DNA of 64,000 bases, taken from contig NZ_CP018099.1 of the NCBI RefSeq assembly GCF_001886815.1, forward strand, positions 310,001 to 374,000, in the 5' to 3' direction. This DNA comes from Caldithrix abyssi DSM 13497. Its GTDB lineage: Bacteria > Calditrichota > Calditrichia > Calditrichales > Calditrichaceae. A program made the position numbers and the translations under genes. Shown one piece after another: positions 13,488 to 63,958 of the stretch. Each line of letters opens with the position of its first letter. The first letter of the stretch is position 1. The notes under the pieces were generated by a model, which saw nothing but the letters and a program-made list of their open reading frames with translations, was not told the DNA's origin and did no database searches.

Positions 13488-16214
13488 ATGATAAAACAGT
13501 TTTTCTTAATGCTTTTAACGGCAACAATTCTCTTTGCACAGGACTTTTCGGGTATTAAAATTTACATCAATCCGGGGCATGGCGGAAATGATCCGGCCAA
13601 TGATCGCTACATTCCTGAAACCGGTTTCTGGGAATCGGAGAGCAATTTGACCAAGGGTCTTTACTTGATGGAATTGTTACAAAAACACCATGCAACGGTT
13701 TACATCAGTCGGACGCAGAATCGAGAGGAAGACGACCTGCCTCTATCGCAAATTGACGAAGACGCCAATGCCCACAATGTGGATTATTTTCATTCCATCC
13801 ACAGCAATGCCCACAATGCCACGGTTAACTATCCGCTGCTCCTTTTTCGCGGTTACGATAACGACCCGGTTTTTCCGGACGCCAAACGGATGGGCAGTAT
13901 TATGTTCAATGAGATGAACAAGGCTGATCGCCAGTGGACTTACTGGCCCTATTCATGGGAAAACAACCGCGGCGATTGGAGTTTTTATTCGCAATGGGGC
14001 ACCAGTGGGCTGGGCGTACTGCGATATTTAACGATGCCGGGCACACTTTCGGAAGGTTCTTTCCACGACTATCTGCCCAATTCGTTTCGCCTGATGAGTA
14101 TTGATTACCGCAAACATGAATCGATTGCCATTCTACGTTCTTTTATTCAATATTTTGGTTTGCAAAGTTTGCCGGACGGCGTGGTGGCCGGAATTATCCG
14201 CTCTAAAACAGAAAATGTTTCTTACAGCTACAATTACAATTCCGGTTTGCCGAATGATAAAAAAAAGGCCTTGAATTTTGCGCGCGCCCGTTTAATACCA
14301 GGCGACCGTATTTACGTGACCGATGAACACAACAACGGCTTTTTTATGTTCGAAAACGTTGAGCCGGGCGTTTACTCGGTTATTATGGACGGCGGAGAGT
14401 ACGCGCCAGACACGGTGCAGGTTACCGTTTACGCCAATCGTACTTCTTATGCTAATGGTTTTTTGGAAAAGGTAACCAATAAAGCGCCGGAAGTTTACCG
14501 ATACGATCTAACGGCGAATGATAGTTTGGTTTTAACGCATTCGACGATTGAAATTCAATTTAGCCAGGCAATGGATCGCCAGAGCACGGAAAGCGCTTTT
14601 AAAATCCAACCGTCGGTTGATGGCTACTTTGAGTGGCAAAACAACGACTTGAAGATGGTTTACGCCCTGTACGATACCCTGCGTCGCAGTACAACCTATA
14701 CGGTTACTGTTGATACCAGCGCAAAAAACAAAAACGGACTGCCTTTAGCGCAGGCCTATTCTTTCTCGTTTGTCACGGCGTCGGAGCACGTTAGACCAAA
14801 TATCGTAAATTTTGGGCCGACCATTGACAGCGTACGCATTCAGAGTTCGATTTACATTCAATTCGATTTTCCCATGCGCAGGGAAAAAACCGAAGCCGCA
14901 TTTTCCATTGATCCGCCGGTAGCAGGGCATTTTGAATGGGAAGAAGATTTAACAGGCTTTAGCTTTGTGCCCGACAGCGCCTTGCAGCGCAAAACGATGT
15001 ACACCGTAAGGTTGAACGCGCAGGCCGAAAATTTTTACGGCGTGGCTCTCGATTCTGCCCTGCAATTTACGTTTATGACCAGATACCGCAACGAACTGTT
15101 GCCCCTTAAATTCTTCCCACAGGATGGGGAAACACATGTAAGCACTCTGCCGCAAATCTACATCATTTTCAACGGCGTGCCTAACAAGTACACAGTTTTT
15201 GGCAACGTTCAGCTTGCCGATTCCAGCGGAACGCCCATGGCCATGCGCGGCCTGGATGTGTTTGAGAAAGATGGAAGGGGCGTGCTGATTTTTGAACCAA
15301 GGTCGGAATTAGAAAAAAATATGCTTTATTATCTGCGCCTGTTCCCGGGCATGAAAGACCTGGACGGCCTGCCCGTGCCCGATACTCTACAATTCAGTTT
15401 CAGAACGGTTCCTAAAACCTACTACAACGGCCACCTTTTGGACGACTTTGAGACCAATTTCGGCTGGCTCGATCCGGACAACGTGCCAGGCACGATGGGC
15501 ACGGATGCTGATGCGACCCAATTTGAGATAACGCGCACCAAAAAGATAAATGGCATTTACAGCGGTAAGCTGGAATACAAGTTTAGCTCAGACTCCGGCG
15601 GCGTATGTCGTTTATTTAATGAAGAAGGGAGAACGATTCCTTCCACTGCCGATTCATTATTTGGCATCTGGGTGTATGGCGATTTTAGCCGAAACCTGCT
15701 GCAGTTGCTTTTTGATCGCGGAAGTGATAAAAATATGGTGGTCTGGCAGGATACCATTAACTGGGCTGGCTGGAAGATGCTTATGGTGCCATTGGATTCC
15801 ATCGGCGGCAGCGGCGATTACAATTTTCACAGCGTGGTGGTTAAACAATTAAACGGCGGATATACCGAAGGCGCCCTCTATCTGGATGACGCCCAGTACG
15901 ATATGATTATCACCGCGCTGGAAGATGAAAATCCAGCCAATTTATTGCCCGCTAAATTAGCGTTACATCAAAATTATCCCAACCCCTTCAATCCGCTAAC
16001 GACCATTGTGTATCAAATTCCGGAAAGCGGAGAAGTGCAACTGGCCCTGTTCAATGTGCTGGGGCAAAAAATAGCAGATGTGGTTAAAGCCAGGCAGCAG
16101 CCGGGCACGTACAAAATAACCATTCGCGCCGATAATCTGGCCAGCGGTGTTTACCTCTATCGCCTGAAGTTTAAAGATCAGGTGCGCGTGAAGAAACTAA
16201 TTGTATTGAAGTAG
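13488..16214 (+). CDS. N-acetylmuramoyl-L-alanine amidase with Ig-like domains and sorting domain
   Basis: Secreted peptidoglycan amidase (amidase_3 fold) of 908 residues; cleaves the bond between N-acetylmuramic acid and the stem peptide. Signal peptide ends LFAQ (residue 18). Zinc ligands are visible: His31 in INPGHGGND, a Glu in FWESESN (about 49-51) and His105 in HSIHSNA; the catalytic Glu lies in GTLSEGSFHD near residue 188. Two or three Big_5-type Ig-like modules follow (about 345-640, each with the 'IEIQFSQAMDR'/'IYIQFDFPMRR' pattern), then a CIA30-like or carbohydrate-binding module (about 650-800) and a YPNPFNPLT sorting domain to the end. The long C-terminal extension suggests surface display and action on external wall material or in cell separation rather than a housekeeping AmiC role. 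Confidence 0.85.
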   Translation: MIKQFFLMLLTATILFAQDFSGIKIYINPGHGGNDPANDRYIPETGFWESESNLTKGLYLMELLQKHHATVYISRTQNREEDDLPLSQIDEDANAHNVDYFHSIHSNAHNATVNYPLLLFRGYDNDPVFPDAKRMGSIMFNEMNKADRQWTYWPYSWENNRGDWSFYSQWGTSGLGVLRYLTMPGTLSEGSFHDYLPNSFRLMSIDYRKHESIAILRSFIQYFGLQSLPDGVVAGIIRSKTENVSYSYNYNSGLPNDKKKALNFARARLIPGDRIYVTDEHNNGFFMFENVEPGVYSVIMDGGEYAPDTVQVTVYANRTSYANGFLEKVTNKAPEVYRYDLTANDSLVLTHSTIEIQFSQAMDRQSTESAFKIQPSVDGYFEWQNNDLKMVYALYDTLRRSTTYTVTVDTSAKNKNGLPLAQAYSFSFVTASEHVRPNIVNFGPTIDSVRIQSSIYIQFDFPMRREKTEAAFSIDPPVAGHFEWEEDLTGFSFVPDSALQRKTMYTVRLNAQAENFYGVALDSALQFTFMTRYRNELLPLKFFPQDGETHVSTLPQIYIIFNGVPNKYTVFGNVQLADSSGTPMAMRGLDVFEKDGRGVLIFEPRSELEKNMLYYLRLFPGMKDLDGLPVPDTLQFSFRTVPKTYYNGHLLDDFETNFGWLDPDNVPGTMGTDADATQFEITRTKKINGIYSGKLEYKFSSDSGGVCRLFNEEGRTIPSTADSLFGIWVYGDFSRNLLQLLFDRGSDKNMVVWQDTINWAGWKMLMVPLDSIGGSGDYNFHSVVVKQLNGGYTEGALYLDDAQYDMIITALEDENPANLLPAKLALHQNYPNPFNPLTTIVYQIPESGEVQLALFNVLGQKIADVVKARQQPGTYKITIRADNLASGVYLYRLKFKDQVRVKKLIVLK

Positions 16215-16237
16215 AAAGTAGAAGATAAAAATCATCT

Positions 16238-16276
16238 AAGCCCGAATGGTTTGTGTTAAGCGATTCGGGCTTTTTT
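16238..16276 (+). terminator. Terminator after the amidase operon
   Basis: Stem AAGCCCGAAT / ATTCGGGCTT around a 13-base loop, followed by six T (16271-16276). It separates the secreted-protein operon from the recQ-type gene. Confidence 0.9.
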
Positions 16277-16391
16277 CTTTTGCAGTGAACAAAATTACAG
16301 CTTACTTTTAAATAAAATGCGTTAATCATCGAAATTTCATATCGAAGATGAGATAGAAGAAACTACGTTTTGCCGAAAAAGGGCCAGGGTT

Positions 16392-18488
16392 ATGGATCAA
16401 AACACGGCCGAACGGCTTTTAAAAATCGCCGTTGGCAACGCCGCTGCCCGTTTCAGGGAAGGTCAGTGGGAAGCCATCGATGCGCTGGTCAATCAGCGTC
16501 GTAAGCTGTTAGTTGTTCAACGAACGGGCTGGGGAAAAAGCCTGGTTTATTTTATCAGTACGCGTATTTTGCGTGACCGGGGAGGCGGACCCACCATCAT
16601 TATCTCTCCTCTATTGGCTCTGATGCGCAATCAAATTGAAGCGGCCGAGCGCATTGGCATTCGGGCGCAAACCATTAATTCCACCAACACGAAAGAATGG
16701 AAGGAAATTACAGAGCAGGTTCTTGACGATCAAATCGACGCCATTCTCATTTCACCTGAAAGGCTGGCCAACGAATCATTTTTGGAAACGTTGCTATTGC
16801 CCATAGCCGAAAGAGTGGGCCTGTTGGTGGTGGATGAAGCGCATTGTATTTCTGACTGGGGGCATGATTTCCGCCCTGATTATAAACGGCTGGTCAATGT
16901 ACTGCGTCACCTGCCTCCCAATTTGCCCTTGCTGGGAACGACCGCCACAGCCAACGACCGTGTGATTGAGGATGTACGTCGCCAGCTGGGAGATATTGAT
17001 GTGATACGGGGGCCCTTGATGCGCAAGAGTCTGGCGCTGCAAACCGGCAGATTAACCGATCAGGCCGAACGCCTGGCCTGGCTGGCCGAGCAGCTGCCGC
17101 AGTTGCCCGGAACGGGGATTGTTTATGTACTGACCATTCGGGATGCGGAACGCGTGGCCAACTGGTTGAAGCAGCAGGGAATAAAGGCTGCGGCTTATTA
17201 CAGCGGCGTGGAAGATGAGAATTTTGAGGACAGCCATTCGTACCGCTTATTTCTGGAAGAACAATTTTTATCAAACCGCATCAAAGCGTTGGTGGCAACC
17301 TCCGCCCTTGGCATGGGATACGACAAACCGGATGTCAGTTTTGTCATTCATTATCAGGCGCCGGCTTCGGTTATCAGTTATTATCAACAGGTGGGACGCG
17401 CCGGGCGCGCCATTCCCCTTGCCCATGGCGTGTTGCTTTCCGGGCGGGAAGATGAAGAAATCCATGAATATTTTCGGCAAACGGCCTTTCCGCCGGCGCA
17501 TCATGTGCATGCCATTCTCAATGCCCTGGAACAGAGCGACGGATTGTCCATTCGCCAGCTTGAGGCGCAAATTAACTTGCGTAGCTCGCAGATCGAAAAG
17601 GCGCTCAAAGTGCTCAGCGTTGAAAATCCCTCACCGGTATTTAAGGACGGCAGTAAGTGGAAACGTACGGCTGTGGACTACAGGATGAATCATGAAATGA
17701 TCGCCCGCTTAACAGCGCAACGCGAACGGGAATGGCGGGAAATTCAGCAGTACATCGATAGCGATAGGTGTCTGATGGTTCATCTGGCAAGGGCGCTGGA
17801 CGATCCGTACGCCGAAGAGTGCGGCCGCTGCGCCAATTGTGTCGGAAAGCCTGTGGTGGAAATGAAAACCAGCGAGCCGCTAATTATTAAGGCAAAACGC
17901 TTTTTACGACATTCCGAAATTATTTTTAAGCCCCGGCGGCAGGTGGCCAAGGGCGCTTTTGTGCAATATGGATTCCGCGGGAATTTTCCGGAAGAATTGC
18001 GGGCTGAAGAAGGCCGAATTCTCTCGCGCTGGGGAGACGCGGGCTGGGGAAGAATAGTTGCAGAAAATAAACATAATGGCTATTTTAATGATGAATTGGT
18101 GGAAGCGGTTAAAGAAATGATTGAACAACGCTGGAGACCCGATCCACAGCCGCAGTGGGTTGCCTGTATCCCTTCTCAAAGGCATCCTGAACTGGTGCCC
18201 GACTTTGCCAGACGGCTGGCCAGAAGCCTGAAGCTCCCTTTTGTGGAATGTATTATAAAAGTAGCGGAGAATGAGCCGCAAAAATTGCAGCAAAACCGTT
18301 TTTATCAATGTCGGAATCTTGACGGTGTTTTTGAGATTAACGACCAGGTTTTGGATACGCCGGTGTTACTGGTTGACGACATAATCGATTCCGGATGGAC
18401 GATGACGGTAGCCGCCGCTCTGTTGCGTCAAGCCGGTAGCGGATTGGTCTATCCGCTGGCGTTAGCTTCCACCAGCGCCAATGATTAA
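16392..18488 (+). CDS. RecQ-family DNA helicase fused to a phosphoribosyltransferase domain
   Basis: 698-residue fusion. Residues 1-350 are a RecQ superfamily 2 helicase core: motif 0 FREGQWEAI (21-29), Walker A GWGKS (46-50), DEAH box 148-151 followed by CISDWGHDFRP, the TAT motif (GTTATAND) near 182-189, and QQVGRAGR (332-339). A RecQ zinc module is intact, with Cys460, Cys477, Cys480 and Cys483 (C-x16-C-x2-C-x2-C). Instead of an RQC/HRDC tail, residues about 560-698 are a type I PRTase-like domain with the PRPP-binding loop VLLVDDIIDSGWT (658-670). The next gene, 36 bases on, is a DprA-like protein, so the pair is probably one operon. RecQ-PRTase fusions exist in other bacteria; the pairing recalls ShosT/ShosA (PRTase toxin, DprA-type antitoxin), but a repair or DNA-uptake role is equally open. 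Confidence 0.85.
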   Translation: MDQNTAERLLKIAVGNAAARFREGQWEAIDALVNQRRKLLVVQRTGWGKSLVYFISTRILRDRGGGPTIIISPLLALMRNQIEAAERIGIRAQTINSTNTKEWKEITEQVLDDQIDAILISPERLANESFLETLLLPIAERVGLLVVDEAHCISDWGHDFRPDYKRLVNVLRHLPPNLPLLGTTATANDRVIEDVRRQLGDIDVIRGPLMRKSLALQTGRLTDQAERLAWLAEQLPQLPGTGIVYVLTIRDAERVANWLKQQGIKAAAYYSGVEDENFEDSHSYRLFLEEQFLSNRIKALVATSALGMGYDKPDVSFVIHYQAPASVISYYQQVGRAGRAIPLAHGVLLSGREDEEIHEYFRQTAFPPAHHVHAILNALEQSDGLSIRQLEAQINLRSSQIEKALKVLSVENPSPVFKDGSKWKRTAVDYRMNHEMIARLTAQREREWREIQQYIDSDRCLMVHLARALDDPYAEECGRCANCVGKPVVEMKTSEPLIIKAKRFLRHSEIIFKPRRQVAKGAFVQYGFRGNFPEELRAEEGRILSRWGDAGWGRIVAENKHNGYFNDELVEAVKEMIEQRWRPDPQPQWVACIPSQRHPELVPDFARRLARSLKLPFVECIIKVAENEPQKLQQNRFYQCRNLDGVFEINDQVLDTPVLLVDDIIDSGWTMTVAAALLRQAGSGLVYPLALASTSAND

Positions 18489-18524
18489 TTTTGCAGTGGA
18501 TAATAACTAAAGAGCGTGGATAAG

Positions 18525-19841
18525 ATGATTTCTAACCTGACGCAGGCTATCCTGCTTTTGACCACCCATTTAAAGAAGAATGAAGAAAACGATGTGCGGC
18601 CGTTGACCCCAACCGAGTGGGGACGATTTGCAGCCTGGCTGAAAGAACAGGGGTTAACGCCCGATCGTTTACTGTTTGCTTTGCCCGCCGAGGTTTTAAA
18701 AGACTGGCGGGACGCTAAAATAACCGTCGAACGCATTGAAGCCCTTTTAGATCGGGGCTCTGCGCTGGCGCTGGCCGTTGAAAAATGGGAACGCAGCGGT
18801 CTGTGGATCATCACGCGCGCCGATGCCGATTATCCTTTAAAATTAAAAGAAAAGCTGGGCCCTCTGGCGCCCCCGGTTCTTTTTGGCTGTGGAAATCGAA
18901 ATTTGATTAACCAGCGGGGCGTGGCTGTTGTGGGTTCCAGAAATGTCAATGACACAGATCTGCGGTATAGCCGGGAGCTGGGCGCTTTTCTGGCAAACTG
19001 CGGTTTTTCTGTTATTTCTGGGGGGGCCAGAGGCGTTGACGAGGCGGCCATGGCAGGGGCTCTGGAAATAGAAGGCACGGCGGTGGGCGTGCTGGCCAAT
19101 GGTTTGCTGCAGGCCAGTTTAAGTCAAAAATACCGCGAGTATTTAAGACAAAAATCGCTCGCCTTAATTTCTCCTTTTAATCCGGAAGCAGGCTTTGATG
19201 TGGGCAACGCCATGCAACGCAATAAATACATCTATTGTCTTTCAGATGCGGCGGTGGCGGTCCATTCCGGCACAAAGGGCGGCACCTGGTCAGGAGCGCT
19301 GGAGAATCTTAAAAAAAAGTGGGCGCCTCTCTGGGTAAAACGAATAGATGATCCGCAGGCGGGAAATCGCCTGCTGGTTCAGAAAGGGGCCCGATGGCTC
19401 CCTGAAAAGGTGGATGAAATCCAGTGTGAATGGTTCTTAAATAAAGAAGTCCAGCAGGATTTATTTAGCTTTAACGCGCAAAAAAAGGAGCGCCAGACGG
19501 GCGAAATATCCTCAACAAAAATTTACGAAGGAACGAAAGACAAAGAAAAACAAATCAAAGAATCAGCGGAAAATAAATCGGCGATAGCAAAAAATATCGG
19601 AGATGCTGAAGATTCAGGTAAAACGCTTACACTGTACGATTTTTTTCTGACTCAATTGAAAAAGCTGTGCAGCGGTAAAGCGCGTTCGATTGAAGAGATA
19701 GCGAATGAACTGGAGCTTCAAAAATCGCAGGCTAACGTCTGGATAAAAAAGGCGCTTGCCGACGGAGTTATTAAAAAGTTAAACAAACCGGCGCGTTATT
19801 ACTGGAATAAAGACAAACAAAAATCATTGCCGCTGGATTAA
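18525..19841 (+). CDS. DprA/SMF-like Rossmann-fold protein with C-terminal winged helix
   Basis: DNA-processing-type protein of about 438 residues. A helical N-terminal part leads to a DprA Rossmann domain (about residues 95-300): TRADADYPLKLKEKL, VAVVGSRNV, the SGGARGVDEAAM loop, and NAMQRNKYIYCLSDAAVAVH. The last signature differs from standard DprA: KGGTWSGALENLKKK replaces the usual SGSLITA-type segment and looks more LOG-like. A charged linker (about 315-370) leads to a winged-helix-like C-terminus (SIEEIANELELQKSQANVW). ATG 18525 is preferred to GTG 18516, since the AAAGAG ribosome site lies about 10 bases from the ATG but overlaps the GTG's spacing. Known DprA loads RecA on single-stranded DNA; here the gene probably works with, or restrains, the upstream RecQ-PRTase protein. 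That functional link is inferred. Confidence 0.8.
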   Translation: MISNLTQAILLLTTHLKKNEENDVRPLTPTEWGRFAAWLKEQGLTPDRLLFALPAEVLKDWRDAKITVERIEALLDRGSALALAVEKWERSGLWIITRADADYPLKLKEKLGPLAPPVLFGCGNRNLINQRGVAVVGSRNVNDTDLRYSRELGAFLANCGFSVISGGARGVDEAAMAGALEIEGTAVGVLANGLLQASLSQKYREYLRQKSLALISPFNPEAGFDVGNAMQRNKYIYCLSDAAVAVHSGTKGGTWSGALENLKKKWAPLWVKRIDDPQAGNRLLVQKGARWLPEKVDEIQCEWFLNKEVQQDLFSFNAQKKERQTGEISSTKIYEGTKDKEKQIKESAENKSAIAKNIGDAEDSGKTLTLYDFFLTQLKKLCSGKARSIEEIANELELQKSQANVWIKKALADGVIKKLNKPARYYWNKDKQKSLPLD

Positions 19842-19901
19842 GCGGTTCAGGCGCTGCTTTTAAGCCCCGCCTGTGTTAGGCATCCGATGGAGTGATGGGG
19901 T

Positions 19902-19932
19902 AAAGGCCCCGCTGCTGGGCAGCGGGGCCTTT
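19902..19932. terminator. Strong GC-rich hairpin downstream of the dprA-like gene
   Basis: Perfect 14-bp stem AAAGGCCCCGCTGC / GCAGCGGGGCCTTT with a TGG loop. Three T end the stem and then GG follows, so the T-tract is short; it may act as a terminator in either direction, or be part of the neighbouring repeat. Confidence 0.6.
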
Positions 19933-19989
19933 GGTGTTTGCCGTGTTGAAGCCAACGCGGTTAGCCGGGCCAGGGGGGGGGGAAATAGA

Positions 19990-20055
19990 GGCCCGGGGCG
20001 TTGCCCCGGGCCGCGCACCCCGCCGCACAAACGGAGCGCTCTGTCAGAGCGCTCC
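19990..20055 (-). repeat. Two-hairpin dispersed repeat, copy 1 (inverted relative to copy 2)
   Basis: Hairpin A: GGCCCGGGGC, loop GTT, GCCCCGGGCC (19990-20012). Hairpin B: arms GGAGCGCTCTG and CAGAGCGCTCC around a single T (20033-20055). A 20-base GC-rich spacer separates them. The reverse complement of the whole unit matches 41782-41847 in order, arms and most of the spacer, so this is one repeat family, not two chance palindromes. Confidence 0.85.
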
Positions 20056-20181
20056 TTCCCCCCCCACCGAAACACCGCAATCGTTTTCCAGTTAAAAAGC
20101 GTCACTTTTCTCTCCTTCTAAAAATGACAATTACTGAAAAATTCCTTACATTTCTAAAAATCAATTTCTGATGAGGAAACC

Positions 20182-21471
20182 ATGAAGCATCTGGTAATTG
20201 TTGACGGTGTGCGAACGCCATTCATCAAATTTAATACGCTGTTTAAAGACCTGCCCGCCCAGCGCCTGGGAGCGTTTGCCCTGCAGGCCTTGATTGAACG
20301 AAACCATTTGAAAGGGCACGAAATTGACGAGGTGATCGTCGGCAATGTAGCCCAGCCGCCCGAAGCCGCCAACATTGCGCGCAACATTGCCCTGTTTGCC
20401 GGGCTGGACGAACGAGTGCCCGCCTTTTCCGTGCAGCGCAATTGCGCCAGCGGCATGCAGGCCGTGGCCGATGCCTGGTATCGTGTGCAGGTCGGACACG
20501 GCCGCACTTACCTGGCAGGCGGCGTGGAAAGTATGTCGCAAATCCCACTTTTGTTCAATCGCCCGGCTCAGGATTGGTTCAACGATTTATTCAAAGCGCG
20601 CCGTACTGGGCAAAAATTAAAAACACTTTTGCGCATTCGGCCTTCCTACTTTAAACCGATCATCGGGTTGCAGCTGGGGCTTACGGACGGTTTTTGCGGG
20701 AAAAACATGGGGCAGGTAACCGAAGCGCTGGCAAAAGAATTTAGCATTGATCGTCAGGCGCAGGATGCCTTTGCCTTACAAAGTCACCAGAAGGCCGAGC
20801 AGGCGGTCAAAAAAAATATTTTTCAGCAGGAAATCGTTCCGGTCAGCGCGCCGGGAAGCAATCAACCGGTTAAAACGGACAACGGCATTCGTTTCGGTCA
20901 GACCATGGAGGCCCTGTCCCGCTTGAAACCGGTTTTTGATTCCAGAGAGGGAACCATCACGGCGGGCAACGCCAGCCAGATTACCGACGGGGCGGCCATG
21001 CTTTTGTTGATGGAAGAAGCCTACGCCCTCTCTTGCGGCTACCGGCCGTTGGCGCGTGTTAAAGCCTTTGCCTTTGCGGCGCTAAATCCGGAAAAGATGG
21101 GGCTGGGACCGGTTTACAGCATGCGGCGCCTTTTTGAAAAAAGCGGAATTACGCTTAAGGATATCGACCTGATAGAAATAAACGAAGCCTTTGCCGCCCA
21201 GGTCATCGCCAATCTGCAACTGGCCGAATCAAAAACGCTGTGTGAAAAATACCTGGGCTTAAACCGCCCGCTGGGAGCGATCGATCTCCAAAAATTGAAC
21301 GTGAACGGCGGGGCCATTGCCCTGGGCCATCCGGTGGGCGCTTCCGGCGCTCGATTGCTGCTCACTCTGGCCAGGGAAATGAAACGCCGCCAGGCACAGC
21401 TTGGTCTGGCCGCTTTGTGCGTGGGCGGCGGTCAGGGAGCGGCCTTTTTGCTGGAAAATGTTCAGGCGTAG
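20182..21471 (+). CDS. Thiolase (acetyl-CoA acyltransferase)
   Basis: Thiolase of 429 residues, the last step of beta-oxidation (3-ketoacyl-CoA + CoA to acetyl-CoA + shortened acyl-CoA) or, in reverse, acetoacetyl-CoA formation. The nucleophilic cysteine is Cys88 in QRNCASGMQ; the NEAFAAQ segment (about 334-340), [14 protein letters not shown] (about 375-388, catalytic His) and CVGGGQGA (about 413, second Cys) are all intact. ATG follows GATGAGGAAACC, with a GAGGAAA ribosome site. It lies 51 bases before the multifunctional hydratase gene and near EtfBA, so it belongs to a fatty-acid degradation cluster; its length and order resemble FadI/FadA of bacterial complexes. Confidence 0.9.
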
Positions 21472-41712: not shown

Positions 41713-41966
41713 GTGGGCGCTGGCGCGAGTAGGGCTGGGCAGAATAACGTGGGGATGTGGGAATTTGGGGAATGGGGAGGTGGAGCGCTCTGTCAGAGCG
41801 CTCCGTTTGGCCGGCGGAGGTCATGGCCCGGGGCAACGCCCCGGGCCTCCTCTTCCCACATCCGTTGATCCCACCACTCCGCTGCCATTTTGCCCGCTCA
41901 ACAATTGGGTGCGGTTATGCTGCCCTGTATGTAAAGAAATGCCGGCTTTTCGAACAAACTTTAAAT
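41713..41966. other. Gene-free stretch carrying a repeat
   Basis: Between the radical SAM gene and the minus-strand DUF1893-like gene. Open frames in it follow the GC-rich palindromes of the repeat at 41782-41847 and have no recognisable protein content. Confidence 0.6.
41782..41847 (+). repeat. Two-hairpin dispersed repeat, copy 2
   Basis: Hairpin B: arms GGAGCGCTCTG and CAGAGCGCTCC around T (41782-41804), then a 20-base spacer starting GTTTGGCCGGCGG, then hairpin A: GGCCCGGGGC, loop AAC, GCCCCGGGCC (41825-41847). It is the reverse complement of the unit at 19990-20055 with near-identical arms and a diverged spacer. Confidence 0.85.
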
Positions 41967-61405: not shown

Positions 61406-61804
61406 TCAGTTCCCTCCAATATGACAATTGGCGCAAGGCGTGGCCTGGTCGTTTTGACCATCATGACAGTTGTTGCAGGTTAACAGGCCTTCGTTTTGTT
61501 TTACAAAGGCGCCGTGGTTTTCGGCGCTTTTAAAATCGAGCCAGTAAGCGGGGTGTGGATAGCTGATCGGCCGGTCTTGTTTGTTGTGGCAGTCAATGCA
61601 AAAGCTTTGATTGGCGGACAAATCCTGACCGTGGCAGGAAATACAGCTAACTGCGCCTGCGGCAACCACTTTAAAAGCATGAAACTCTTCGGCCTGTGGA
61701 TTTGCCCAATCCGCAGGGTGCGCTTTATTTTCTATCGGGGTTTCCATTTTGGCGCAAGCCAGGAAAAATAATCCCACACTGGCTATGAGTAATATTTTTT
61801 TCAT
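61406..61804 (-). CDS. Small 4-heme cytochrome c lipoprotein
   Basis: 132 residues. Signal with lipobox FFLACAK, so the cysteine at about residue 17 would be lipidated and tether the protein to a membrane. Four CXXCH heme sites: CISCH, CIDCH, CNNCH and CANCH. It is 28 bases after the 12-heme gene on the same strand, so both are likely co-transcribed with the barrel gene. Possible role: outer- or inner-membrane-tethered relay between large cytochromes. ATG follows GGTAGGGA. Confidence 0.85.
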   Translation of the reverse strand: MKKILLIASVGLFFLACAKMETPIENKAHPADWANPQAEEFHAFKVVAAGAVSCISCHGQDLSANQSFCIDCHNKQDRPISYPHPAYWLDFKSAENHGAFVKQNEGLLTCNNCHDGQNDQATPCANCHIGGN

Positions 61805-61832
61805 CAGTCGGTCCCTACCTTTTTCTCACCCA

Positions 61833-62729
61833 TTAATTTCCATGACAGGTCATACACACCACGTCGGCATAAGCGTCGTTGTGGCAGCTCATACACGCAT
61901 CAAAATCGATCTGCGCCTCGCGAACATGTTCGCCCCCATCGCCGGCAATGCGATTGGCCCAAGTAGGCAGGGCATGGTTTTGGGGCATTACCCGTTCCGA
62001 GCGATGGCAGTCAACACAAAAGGCCTGCTCCTGATGACAGGTCAGGCAGTTTTCTTTATTGCCTTTGGCCATCAGCCCGTGCGTGTAGCGGTAGTTCAGG
62101 GGATGCGCCTGCCGATTAAGATTGTCGCCTTCATGACAGTCGCTGCAGTAGGTTGGTTGATGGCAGTGTTCGCATGAATTTTCGTCCATTTGCTGAACCA
62201 GGCCATGATCTTTACGCCAGTTGAGCTGGTGAGTGGCCGGCAAAAAGTTTAGCGATGGTTCGTGGCAGGTAAAACATTTCGATTGGCTTTCCACCACATC
62301 GGCTCCCACATGACAGGCATTGCATTTTTCCTTTGTCGGAAGATGAAAGTCCTGCGTGGTTTTCGCTGTTTCCACGCCTTTATGGCAGGTTAAACAATTG
62401 TTTCCTTCTTTATCCACGTGCAGTTTGTGCGGAAAGCGACTGTTAAATCCTTCCAGACGTCTGGCGATAGCAGGCTCGTCGGCATTGGTATGGCAGGCGG
62501 AGCAGGGAGTTTCTTCTTCATCGTGGCAGCTGTAACAGGTTTGCATCTCCGGCATTAGCACGTCCTGCCAGTTTTCACTTTCTATCGCTTTGCCATGGCA
62601 ATCCAGACAAGCAATCTCCTGTTGCTGCACATGAAGCTGATGCGAAAAAATAATCTGATCTTCCTGTGCCAGGGCTGAAGAAACAAGCAGAAAAAAACAA
62701 ACAACTAAAAATGGTTTCAACTTTTGCAT
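61833..62729 (-). CDS. 12-heme periplasmic or surface cytochrome c
   Basis: About 298 residues with a signal peptide (ends SSALAQ) and 12 CXXCH sites, roughly one heme per 25 residues, as in the MtrA/DmsE and cytochrome c7-like groups. Class III-type His pairs accompany the sites (SHQLHVQQQEIACLDCH, PHKLHVDKEGNNCLTCH). No membrane anchor. The GTG at 62738 starts a frame, but ATG 62729 is more likely since AAAGGTGA is five bases upstream. It follows the barrel gene, whose stop is 14 bases away, so it is well placed as a heme wire inside or next to a porin. The porin-cytochrome reading is inferred. Confidence 0.88.
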   Translation of the reverse strand: MQKLKPFLVVCFFLLVSSALAQEDQIIFSHQLHVQQQEIACLDCHGKAIESENWQDVLMPEMQTCYSCHDEEETPCSACHTNADEPAIARRLEGFNSRFPHKLHVDKEGNNCLTCHKGVETAKTTQDFHLPTKEKCNACHVGADVVESQSKCFTCHEPSLNFLPATHQLNWRKDHGLVQQMDENSCEHCHQPTYCSDCHEGDNLNRQAHPLNYRYTHGLMAKGNKENCLTCHQEQAFCVDCHRSERVMPQNHALPTWANRIAGDGGEHVREAQIDFDACMSCHNDAYADVVCMTCHGN

Positions 62730-62743
62730 GATATTCACCTTTT

Positions 62744-63958
62744 TTACCAGACAAAACTAATATGGTTTAAGACGCGTTGATCCGATTTGAAATCTGCATT
62801 TTGCAGCCACTGGTATTCCAGTTGAATGTTCCAGTGTTTTAAAAAGCGGTAGCTCAGGCCCACCGCATTGGCCAGTTGATTTTCGTAATCGTAGCGTTTT
62901 TCGAATCGATAGCGCGTGTAATCAATGCTCAAATTAAGCGTTAACTCCCGCATTATCCGATAGCGGTAATTAAACAGCGCTCCCATCTGGTCGCCCAGAT
63001 CGCCCGTTTCGTAAACCAGTCCAAAGCTGCCGTGACGATCCGAAAGCATGGCAATAAAACGATTTCCATAGCCTTCTTTTAGCTGCACGCCCTGCATCAT
63101 GCCGGTAATGGCATATTGATCAGTAAGTTGATAAACCACATTGAAGCCGCTTAACAAATAGCGATCAACCTCAAAGATCTGAAAATAAGAAGTATTGTAA
63201 ATTTGCGGATATTGTTGTTTAACATAAGCGTTGATTAACAATTTTGGGCTAAACTGGTAGCGGGCCGAAAGGTACAAACGGTGCAGGCGGCTGTTTACCA
63301 GGTCGTAGTGCGCCTGGGTTAACACCAACAAATGTTTAATGCTGTAGTTGCTGAAATTAATTCCGGCCAGTTGCCATTGGGTTTCGCTTTGCGCGTTTTT
63401 TTGCAGGTACACCAGGCTGATATTGCTTTTAAACATTCTTTTAAACTTTAACTGCGTGCCAAAAACGGCGGCTTCATCCACGGCATAAACTTTAGCCGCG
63501 CGCAGCAAGTGCGTTTCCACCCCGCCGTAAACCTGCCATTCGAACCACTTTAAGGGTTTAATATTCAGATTTAATCCGTCCAGGCTGCCCAGGGTAACTC
63601 CTGGATGTAAAAATTGACGACCGATTTCAAGATCAATCATGTTAAATAAATTTTTCTTGGAAACGGACAGGCGATAGGCTCTAAATCGTTTAACGTTGTC
63701 CAGCTCGCTGTCGGCCAGGTCGGTCAGGGCGCGGCCGGCCAGATGTAATTGCCAGCCTCCCAGTTGATTAAAGATCACATTGGCGCTCAGCGTTTGATAA
63801 AGTCGCGTGTGCAGTTCGGTTTTGTCGGAGCCAATCTCTTCTGGCGCGCTGTAGGCATAAACCGAGTTTCGCATATAGCCATTGAACTCCACGCCCTGAG
63901 CAATGGTACAGCTGATTCCCGCTAACAAAAGGCTAATTCCCAGCATACACTTTTTCAT
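62744..63958 (-). CDS. Outer-membrane beta-barrel protein, first gene of the cytochrome operon
   Basis: 404 residues. Signal peptide (about 1-20, ends TIAQ), then alternating-residue barrel strands with many aromatic girdle residues (FNGYMRNSVYAYS, DLEIGRQFLHPG, LSARYQFSPKLLINAYVKQ) and a C-terminal aromatic end (HISFVW). I do not see an MtrB/PioB N-terminal CXXC motif. It heads an operon with the 12-heme and 4-heme cytochromes, 14 and 28 bases apart. Porin and multiheme cytochromes coded together are typical of outer-membrane electron conduits; another view is a plain porin for an anion used in respiration. Upstream 42 bases hold GAGAG and the window end. Confidence 0.75.
   Translation of the reverse strand: MKKCMLGISLLLAGISCTIAQGVEFNGYMRNSVYAYSAPEEIGSDKTELHTRLYQTLSANVIFNQLGGWQLHLAGRALTDLADSELDNVKRFRAYRLSVSKKNLFNMIDLEIGRQFLHPGVTLGSLDGLNLNIKPLKWFEWQVYGGVETHLLRAAKVYAVDEAAVFGTQLKFKRMFKSNISLVYLQKNAQSETQWQLAGINFSNYSIKHLLVLTQAHYDLVNSRLHRLYLSARYQFSPKLLINAYVKQQYPQIYNTSYFQIFEVDRYLLSGFNVVYQLTDQYAITGMMQGVQLKEGYGNRFIAMLSDRHGSFGLVYETGDLGDQMGALFNYRYRIMRELTLNLSIDYTRYRFEKRYDYENQLANAVGLSYRFLKHWNIQLEYQWLQNADFKSDQRVLNHISFVW

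Follow-up and report, generated by a model that had tools for sequence, protein, structure and literature searches.

A PsyrTA (RqlHI)-type pair of RecQ-PRTase and DprA-like genes in Caldithrix abyssi

Organization of the locus

Within the window, i.e., the whole 64,000-nucleotide stretch of the Caldithrix abyssi DSM 13497 genome analyzed here, two adjacent genes encode a RecQ-type helicase with a C-terminal PRTase domain and a DprA-like protein. The genes and the repeats that flank them are the following:

16238..16272, plus strand: terminator-like hairpin and T-run, located between psyrT and the amidase gene upstream of it (inverted repeat, 15-nt arms, 87% complementary, T-rich 3' side)
16392..18488, plus strand: PsyrT/RqlH toxin gene, ATG start, 698 aa; RecQ ~1-490, PRTase ~537-698 (Pfam, PADLOC, identity to E. 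coli, AlphaFold2)
18516..19841, plus strand: PsyrA/RqlI antitoxin gene, 441 aa from GTG, 438 aa if ATG 18525 is the start (PADLOC, Pfam, identity to E. coli, model)
19902..19932, plus strand: perfect 14-bp inverted repeat directly after psyrA (100% complementary, loop of 3)

The repeat following psyrA is the probable end of the two-gene unit and, taken together with the hairpin upstream of psyrT, suggests that the pair forms a separate transcription unit. The two genes lie 27 bases apart when the second is counted from its GTG and 36 bases apart if ATG 18525 is the true start, and the gap of 36 bases given in a first-pass annotation of this DNA therefore holds for the ATG and not for the GTG. 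By alignment the ATG is the likelier start, since the protein then opens MISNLTQAILLLT, matching MNLSANAQATLLLT inside the E. coli homolog. No Rfam match was found in the region 16000-20300, so no regulatory RNA was detected at the locus, and a search of the genome with an HNH family returned nothing relevant.

The pair stands alone among genes for secreted proteins, transport and metabolic genes and fatty-acid (beta-oxidation) genes. None of 10 other window proteins scanned matches a defense profile at E<=1e-20, and with neighbors that are metabolic, transport-related or secreted, the presence of a defense island in the window was rejected. The G+C content of the pair (~0.50-0.53) is not distinct from that of the downstream genes, so that composition gives no evidence of transfer.

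Beyond the pair lies an intergenic repeat (19960-20075, plus strand; second copy at 41774-41857, minus strand) whose two strong hairpins, GGCCCGGGGCGTTGCCCCGGGCC and GGAGCGCTCTGTCAGAGCGCTCC, give it a two-armed fold (z = -4.8). About 15 longer copies are present in the genome and none was found in three congeneric genomes. This repeat resembles a REP/BIME-type element, and the genome that carries it also encodes three Y1-transposase-like proteins.

The RecQ-PRTase protein

The first protein matches the Pfam families DEAD (E=5e-25) and Helicase_C, and the intact zinc module that the first-pass annotation ascribed to its RecQ core is indeed present: Walker A (GWGKS, residues 46-50) and the DEAH motif (148-151) are accompanied by all four zinc cysteines (C460, C477, C480 and C483), each of which is kept in only ~80% of relatives. 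A search with the model of the whole protein retrieved RecQ catalytic cores, with RecQ-type helicases only among the best 50 matches listed. Identification as a canonical RecQ was rejected, the TIGR01389 score of 284.8 bits falling below the equivalog cut-off of 640.2. A second RecQ-like helicase is encoded in the genome (L002, positions 61450-62883 of the genome contig, ~478 aa); it has no PRTase domain and is 30% identical to the window protein.

The C-terminal part had been proposed to hold a PRTase domain at residues 560-698 with a type I PRPP loop at 658-670. The loop, VLLVDDIIDSGWTMT, spans residues ~658-672 and contains the acidic pair D662/D663, kept in 80/80 aligned sequences and also invariant in 34 relatives. 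The domain is confirmed by a PF00156 match at residues 605-682 (27.9 bits, above the Pfam cut-off of 26.3) and by a confident AlphaFold2 model (input alignment of 34 sequences; mean pLDDT 90), in which strands and helices alternate from residue 540 on, the blocks of this part mostly score 89-97 and the C-terminal 150 residues are among the best-scored parts. In a sequence search of solved structures the PRTase segment matched PRPP synthetases and hypoxanthine PRTases only weakly (E 0.03-1); the assignment is thus based on Pfam, the PRPP motif, the PsyrT profile (see below) and the confidence of the model rather than on a fold match. Two PADLOC models labeled DpdF, PDLC02866 and PDLC02869, also match this segment (18000-18485; 53.5 and 108.1 bits, respectively), which suggests that PsyrT-like sequences are mixed into the PADLOC DpdF models.

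The DprA-like protein

The DprA-like nature of the second protein, likewise noted at first pass, is borne out by Pfam DNA_processg_A (PF02481, E=1.2e-40). An N-terminal helical region is followed by the DprA/SMF LOG domain (91-295), a disordered linker (312-368) and a winged-helix-like C-terminal segment (~373-430), and the model has a mean pLDDT of 86.7. The solved chain 9vzo, a ShosA, matches the DprA-like domain, and no structure named PsyrT or PsyrA was among the best matches listed in the sequence search of solved structures.

A KGGTWSGA segment begins at residue 254. It had been read as a changed form (KGGTWSGAL) that would make the protein an atypical DprA, a reading that does not hold, because the segment is the norm of the PsyrA family: GGT(W/L)xGA or a close form occurs in nearly all of ~80 linked relatives, and G255, G256, T257, G260 and A261 are invariant in an alignment of 24 sequences. 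The genome's other, more canonical DprA (L010) has KSGALLTA instead. Given this difference and a TIGR00732 score of 98.0 bits, below the equivalog cut-off of 191.15, identification of the window protein as a canonical DprA was rejected.

Assignment to PsyrTA

The PADLOC PsyrT profile matches the first protein with 1020.7 bits (residues 3-698 on profile positions 5-688/689), and the PsyrA profile matches the second with 514.7 bits (residues 5-430 on positions 3-396/398). Besides these full-length matches, the pair has the gene order and both protein architectures of PsyrTA; it differs from the described system in the phylum of its host and in the absence of defense-island neighbors. Specifically, the features shared with PsyrTA/RqlHI are a RecQ core with Walker A and DEAH, a C-terminal type I PRTase with the acidic PRPP-loop pair, and a DprA-like partner directly downstream on the same strand.

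Comparison with E. coli points in the same direction. Relative to a chromosomal rqlHI-type pair, the first protein is 59% identical without gaps, both proteins being 698 aa long, and the second is 43% identical; the strain compared is not F11, and these values apply to that strain's pair and not to F11 RqlH. The E. coli genes are annotated as overlapping, whereas those in the window are 27-36 nt apart. K49, D148 and D663, with the same position numbers in the window protein and the E. coli homolog, correspond to the residues that Russell and Mulvey mutated and tested in RqlH of extraintestinal E. coli (PMC4670107), and all three are intact in the window protein. RqlI comprises a DprA region and a C-terminal HTH (PMC4670107), as does the second window protein.

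Two further systems bear comparison. ShosTA also joins a PRTase toxin to a DprA-like antitoxin and is related in logic to the window pair, but RecQ has no counterpart in the ShosT profile (237 positions), whereas the window PRTase is fused to RecQ. The PRTase segment by itself scores 222.6 bits against PsyrT and 24.9 bits against ShosT, and the best ShosA model gives the second protein 92.7 bits, far below its PsyrA score; membership in ShosTA was therefore rejected. Thus, the fused ShosTA-like module suggested at first pass stands insofar as a DprA-like antitoxin accompanies a helicase-PRTase toxin, but the system is not an unnamed one, the PADLOC scores identifying it as PsyrTA/RqlHI. The other comparison is with RqlH of Mycobacterium smegmatis, which we take to be the protein named SftH. 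By its description, this is a RecQ-type helicase with a C-terminal PRTase, as is the window protein, but it has no DprA-like partner (PMC4670107), in contrast to the window copy.

The PADLOC profiles are unambiguous, and by its sequence the pair is a complete copy of the described PsyrTA (RqlH-RqlI in E. coli). It adds an occurrence to a known toxin-antitoxin and candidate anti-phage system and is not a new type of machine. The reading frames of both genes are conserved across many phyla and are not due to chance.

Distribution and neighborhoods of relatives

Among 80 relatives from many bacterial phyla, a DprA-like gene lies just downstream of the helicase gene in 76, so that the DprA-like neighbor pointed out at first pass is nearly always there. 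Of the four exceptions, one is on a contig that ends 87 bases on, two have ~1.1 and 1.4 kb left, and only the Actinomycetota copy has ample sequence. Two PsyrT relatives, L079 (Actinomycetota, 50% identical) and L020 (haloarchaeal plasmid, 46%), have no DprA-like gene detected downstream despite sufficient sequence, and they are perhaps candidates for a lone PsyrT form that is non-toxic or differently restrained.

In the phylum of the window, the same 4 of 40 genomes hold both genes, and hold them adjacent. In a congener (G002), the genes for the amidase-like secreted protein and the thiolase that flank the pair here are separated by only 0.8 kb, which holds not the pair but a 222-aa ORF that looks, by eye, like a TetR-type regulator. 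The congener's own PsyrT, 30% identical, is on another contig, which also carries cell-division genes. It belongs to a divergent PsyrTA subfamily (L013/L016 of G002 and L017 of G020) within the same taxonomic order, in which PsyrT is ~30% identical to that of the window, the zinc cysteines are partly lost and the DprA-like partner retains KGGTW.

In a phylogenetic tree, the window protein has as its sister a single copy from a different family of the phylum (support 1.0); the next branch out is Thiohalocapsa (0.99), followed by other gammaproteobacterial copies (0.65). The patchy distribution in the phylum, the absence from the congener's site and the closeness to gammaproteobacterial copies suggest horizontal acquisition of the pair or its replacement at the site, probably the simplest account of these sequences. 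An origin from phages was rejected, given that no record of the phage collection covered 80% of the first protein and that a scan of viral contigs with the second found no relative.

Many relatives keep company that the window copy does not. One E. coli plasmid relative sits between HsdS and HsdR in a type I restriction locus, and an Acinetobacter plasmid relative is flanked by pglX and pglZ in a BREX operon. For the 63 immediate neighbors of closer relatives, matches at E<=1e-20 number at least 7 to type I restriction enzymes, 4 to specificity subunits and 3 to Hma proteins, counts that are descriptive, and near more distant relatives the defense matches are fewer but varied (e.g., GajB, BrxL, ZorD). 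Relatives often lie next to restriction, BREX or Hma genes, in line with the defense-island neighborhood that the first-pass annotation proposed to look for, but the window copy does not.

Function and alternative explanations

When RqlI is absent, RqlH of E. coli slows growth, induces the SOS response and causes filamentation, and these effects require the PRTase active site; the helicase domain helps to hold the PRTase in check, and RqlI, encoded in an operon with RqlH, binds RqlH and relieves its toxicity (PMC4670107). The K-12 strain MG1655 has no rqlHI (PMC4670107). Rousset and colleagues treat shosTA, syrTA and rqlHI as one group of toxin-antitoxin pairs, the antitoxins being of the DprA type (PMC9122126). 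PsyrTA was first validated as a toxin-antitoxin pair by Sberro et al. 2013, as the latter work is cited in PMC8790059 and PMC9122126, and it is listed among phage-defense or phage-protecting toxin-antitoxin systems (PMC10855318). However, PsyrTA of one E. coli strain gave no detectable phage protection when expressed (PMC12409345), so PsyrTA does not protect against phage in every case.

For this locus, the analysis establishes membership in the family, intactness of the motifs, linkage and patchy distribution. The most likely and best-supported account is a pair resembling type II systems, whose DprA-like protein would hold the helicase-PRTase inactive. The toxin would be the RecQ-PRTase protein, whose PRTase site (PRPP loop, D662/D663) would act on a nucleotide or on DNA, so that DNA is damaged and growth stops. 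The helicase part, which may sense DNA, would bring the toxin to DNA and share in its control, and the DprA-like partner, made from the same transcript, would bind the toxin and keep it inactive. Infection or DNA damage by which the DprA-like protein is removed or occupied could then free the toxin and halt the cell, a protection of the abortive-infection type. Activity of the window copy, the phage as trigger and the substrate are all inferred in this scheme. As a whole, we consider it highly probable that the locus is a complete PsyrTA (RqlHI) toxin-antitoxin operon, apparently intact and of horizontal origin, in which the DprA-like partner restrains a genotoxic helicase-PRTase.

Among the alternatives, the one that survives best, though we regard it as unlikely, is a housekeeping pair for repair or replication restart, in which RecQ-PRTase and DprA jointly process DNA and the toxicity of the former alone reflects an imbalance of the repair complex. 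This is the model favored by Russell and Mulvey, who report that RqlH interacts with RqlI and proposed for the two a joint but undefined beneficial function on DNA; they also noted that many Gram-positive bacteria have RqlH, usually without RqlI (PMC4670107), which implies that toxicity is not universal. The surroundings of the window copy, not being a defense island, would fit as well. However, a housekeeping gene would not be expected in so few genomes of the phylum or to be missing at the congener's site, the genome has a canonical DprA and another RecQ-like helicase without PRTase, and some plasmid copies lie inside restriction and BREX clusters.

It is very improbable that the pair is a decayed or inactive acquired copy without present function: although it is isolated outside a defense island and its activity is presumed, neither frame is truncated and every tested catalytic residue is retained. 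The least probable reading is a natural-transformation factor, raised at first pass and discussed in PMC4670107, in which the DprA-like protein would load RecA on incoming DNA processed by the helicase-PRTase (cf. ComFA/ComFC); the Pfam DprA homology and the PRTase nature of ComF agree with it, but the more canonical DprA L010 (KSGALLTA) and a PRTase-like ORF (258-aa frame, 1347955-1348296) are encoded separately in the genome, the KGGTW segment is specific to the PsyrA family and no competence genes adjoin the pair.

Implications for the PsyrTA family

Taking the locus as a PsyrTA toxin-antitoxin operon, a speculative and rather doubtful extension is that the PRTase of the family modifies the DNA itself where RecQ has opened the strands, and that the DprA-like LOG domain reverses or gates this modification. 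Such a scheme has already been put forward in outline for RqlHI (PMC4670107). If true, a DNA-targeting toxin would have a chemistry not known so far, and the whole family would be concerned, not the window copy alone.

As a finding, the pair is a routine new occurrence with two modest uses. The host seems to be a thermophile, and its proteins, although they may have little activity at 37 C, may therefore withstand heat and lend themselves to structural and biochemical study of the PsyrTA family. Additionally, the KGGTWxGA signature offers a simple mark that separates PsyrA antitoxins from canonical DprA, two groups to which public annotation gives one name.
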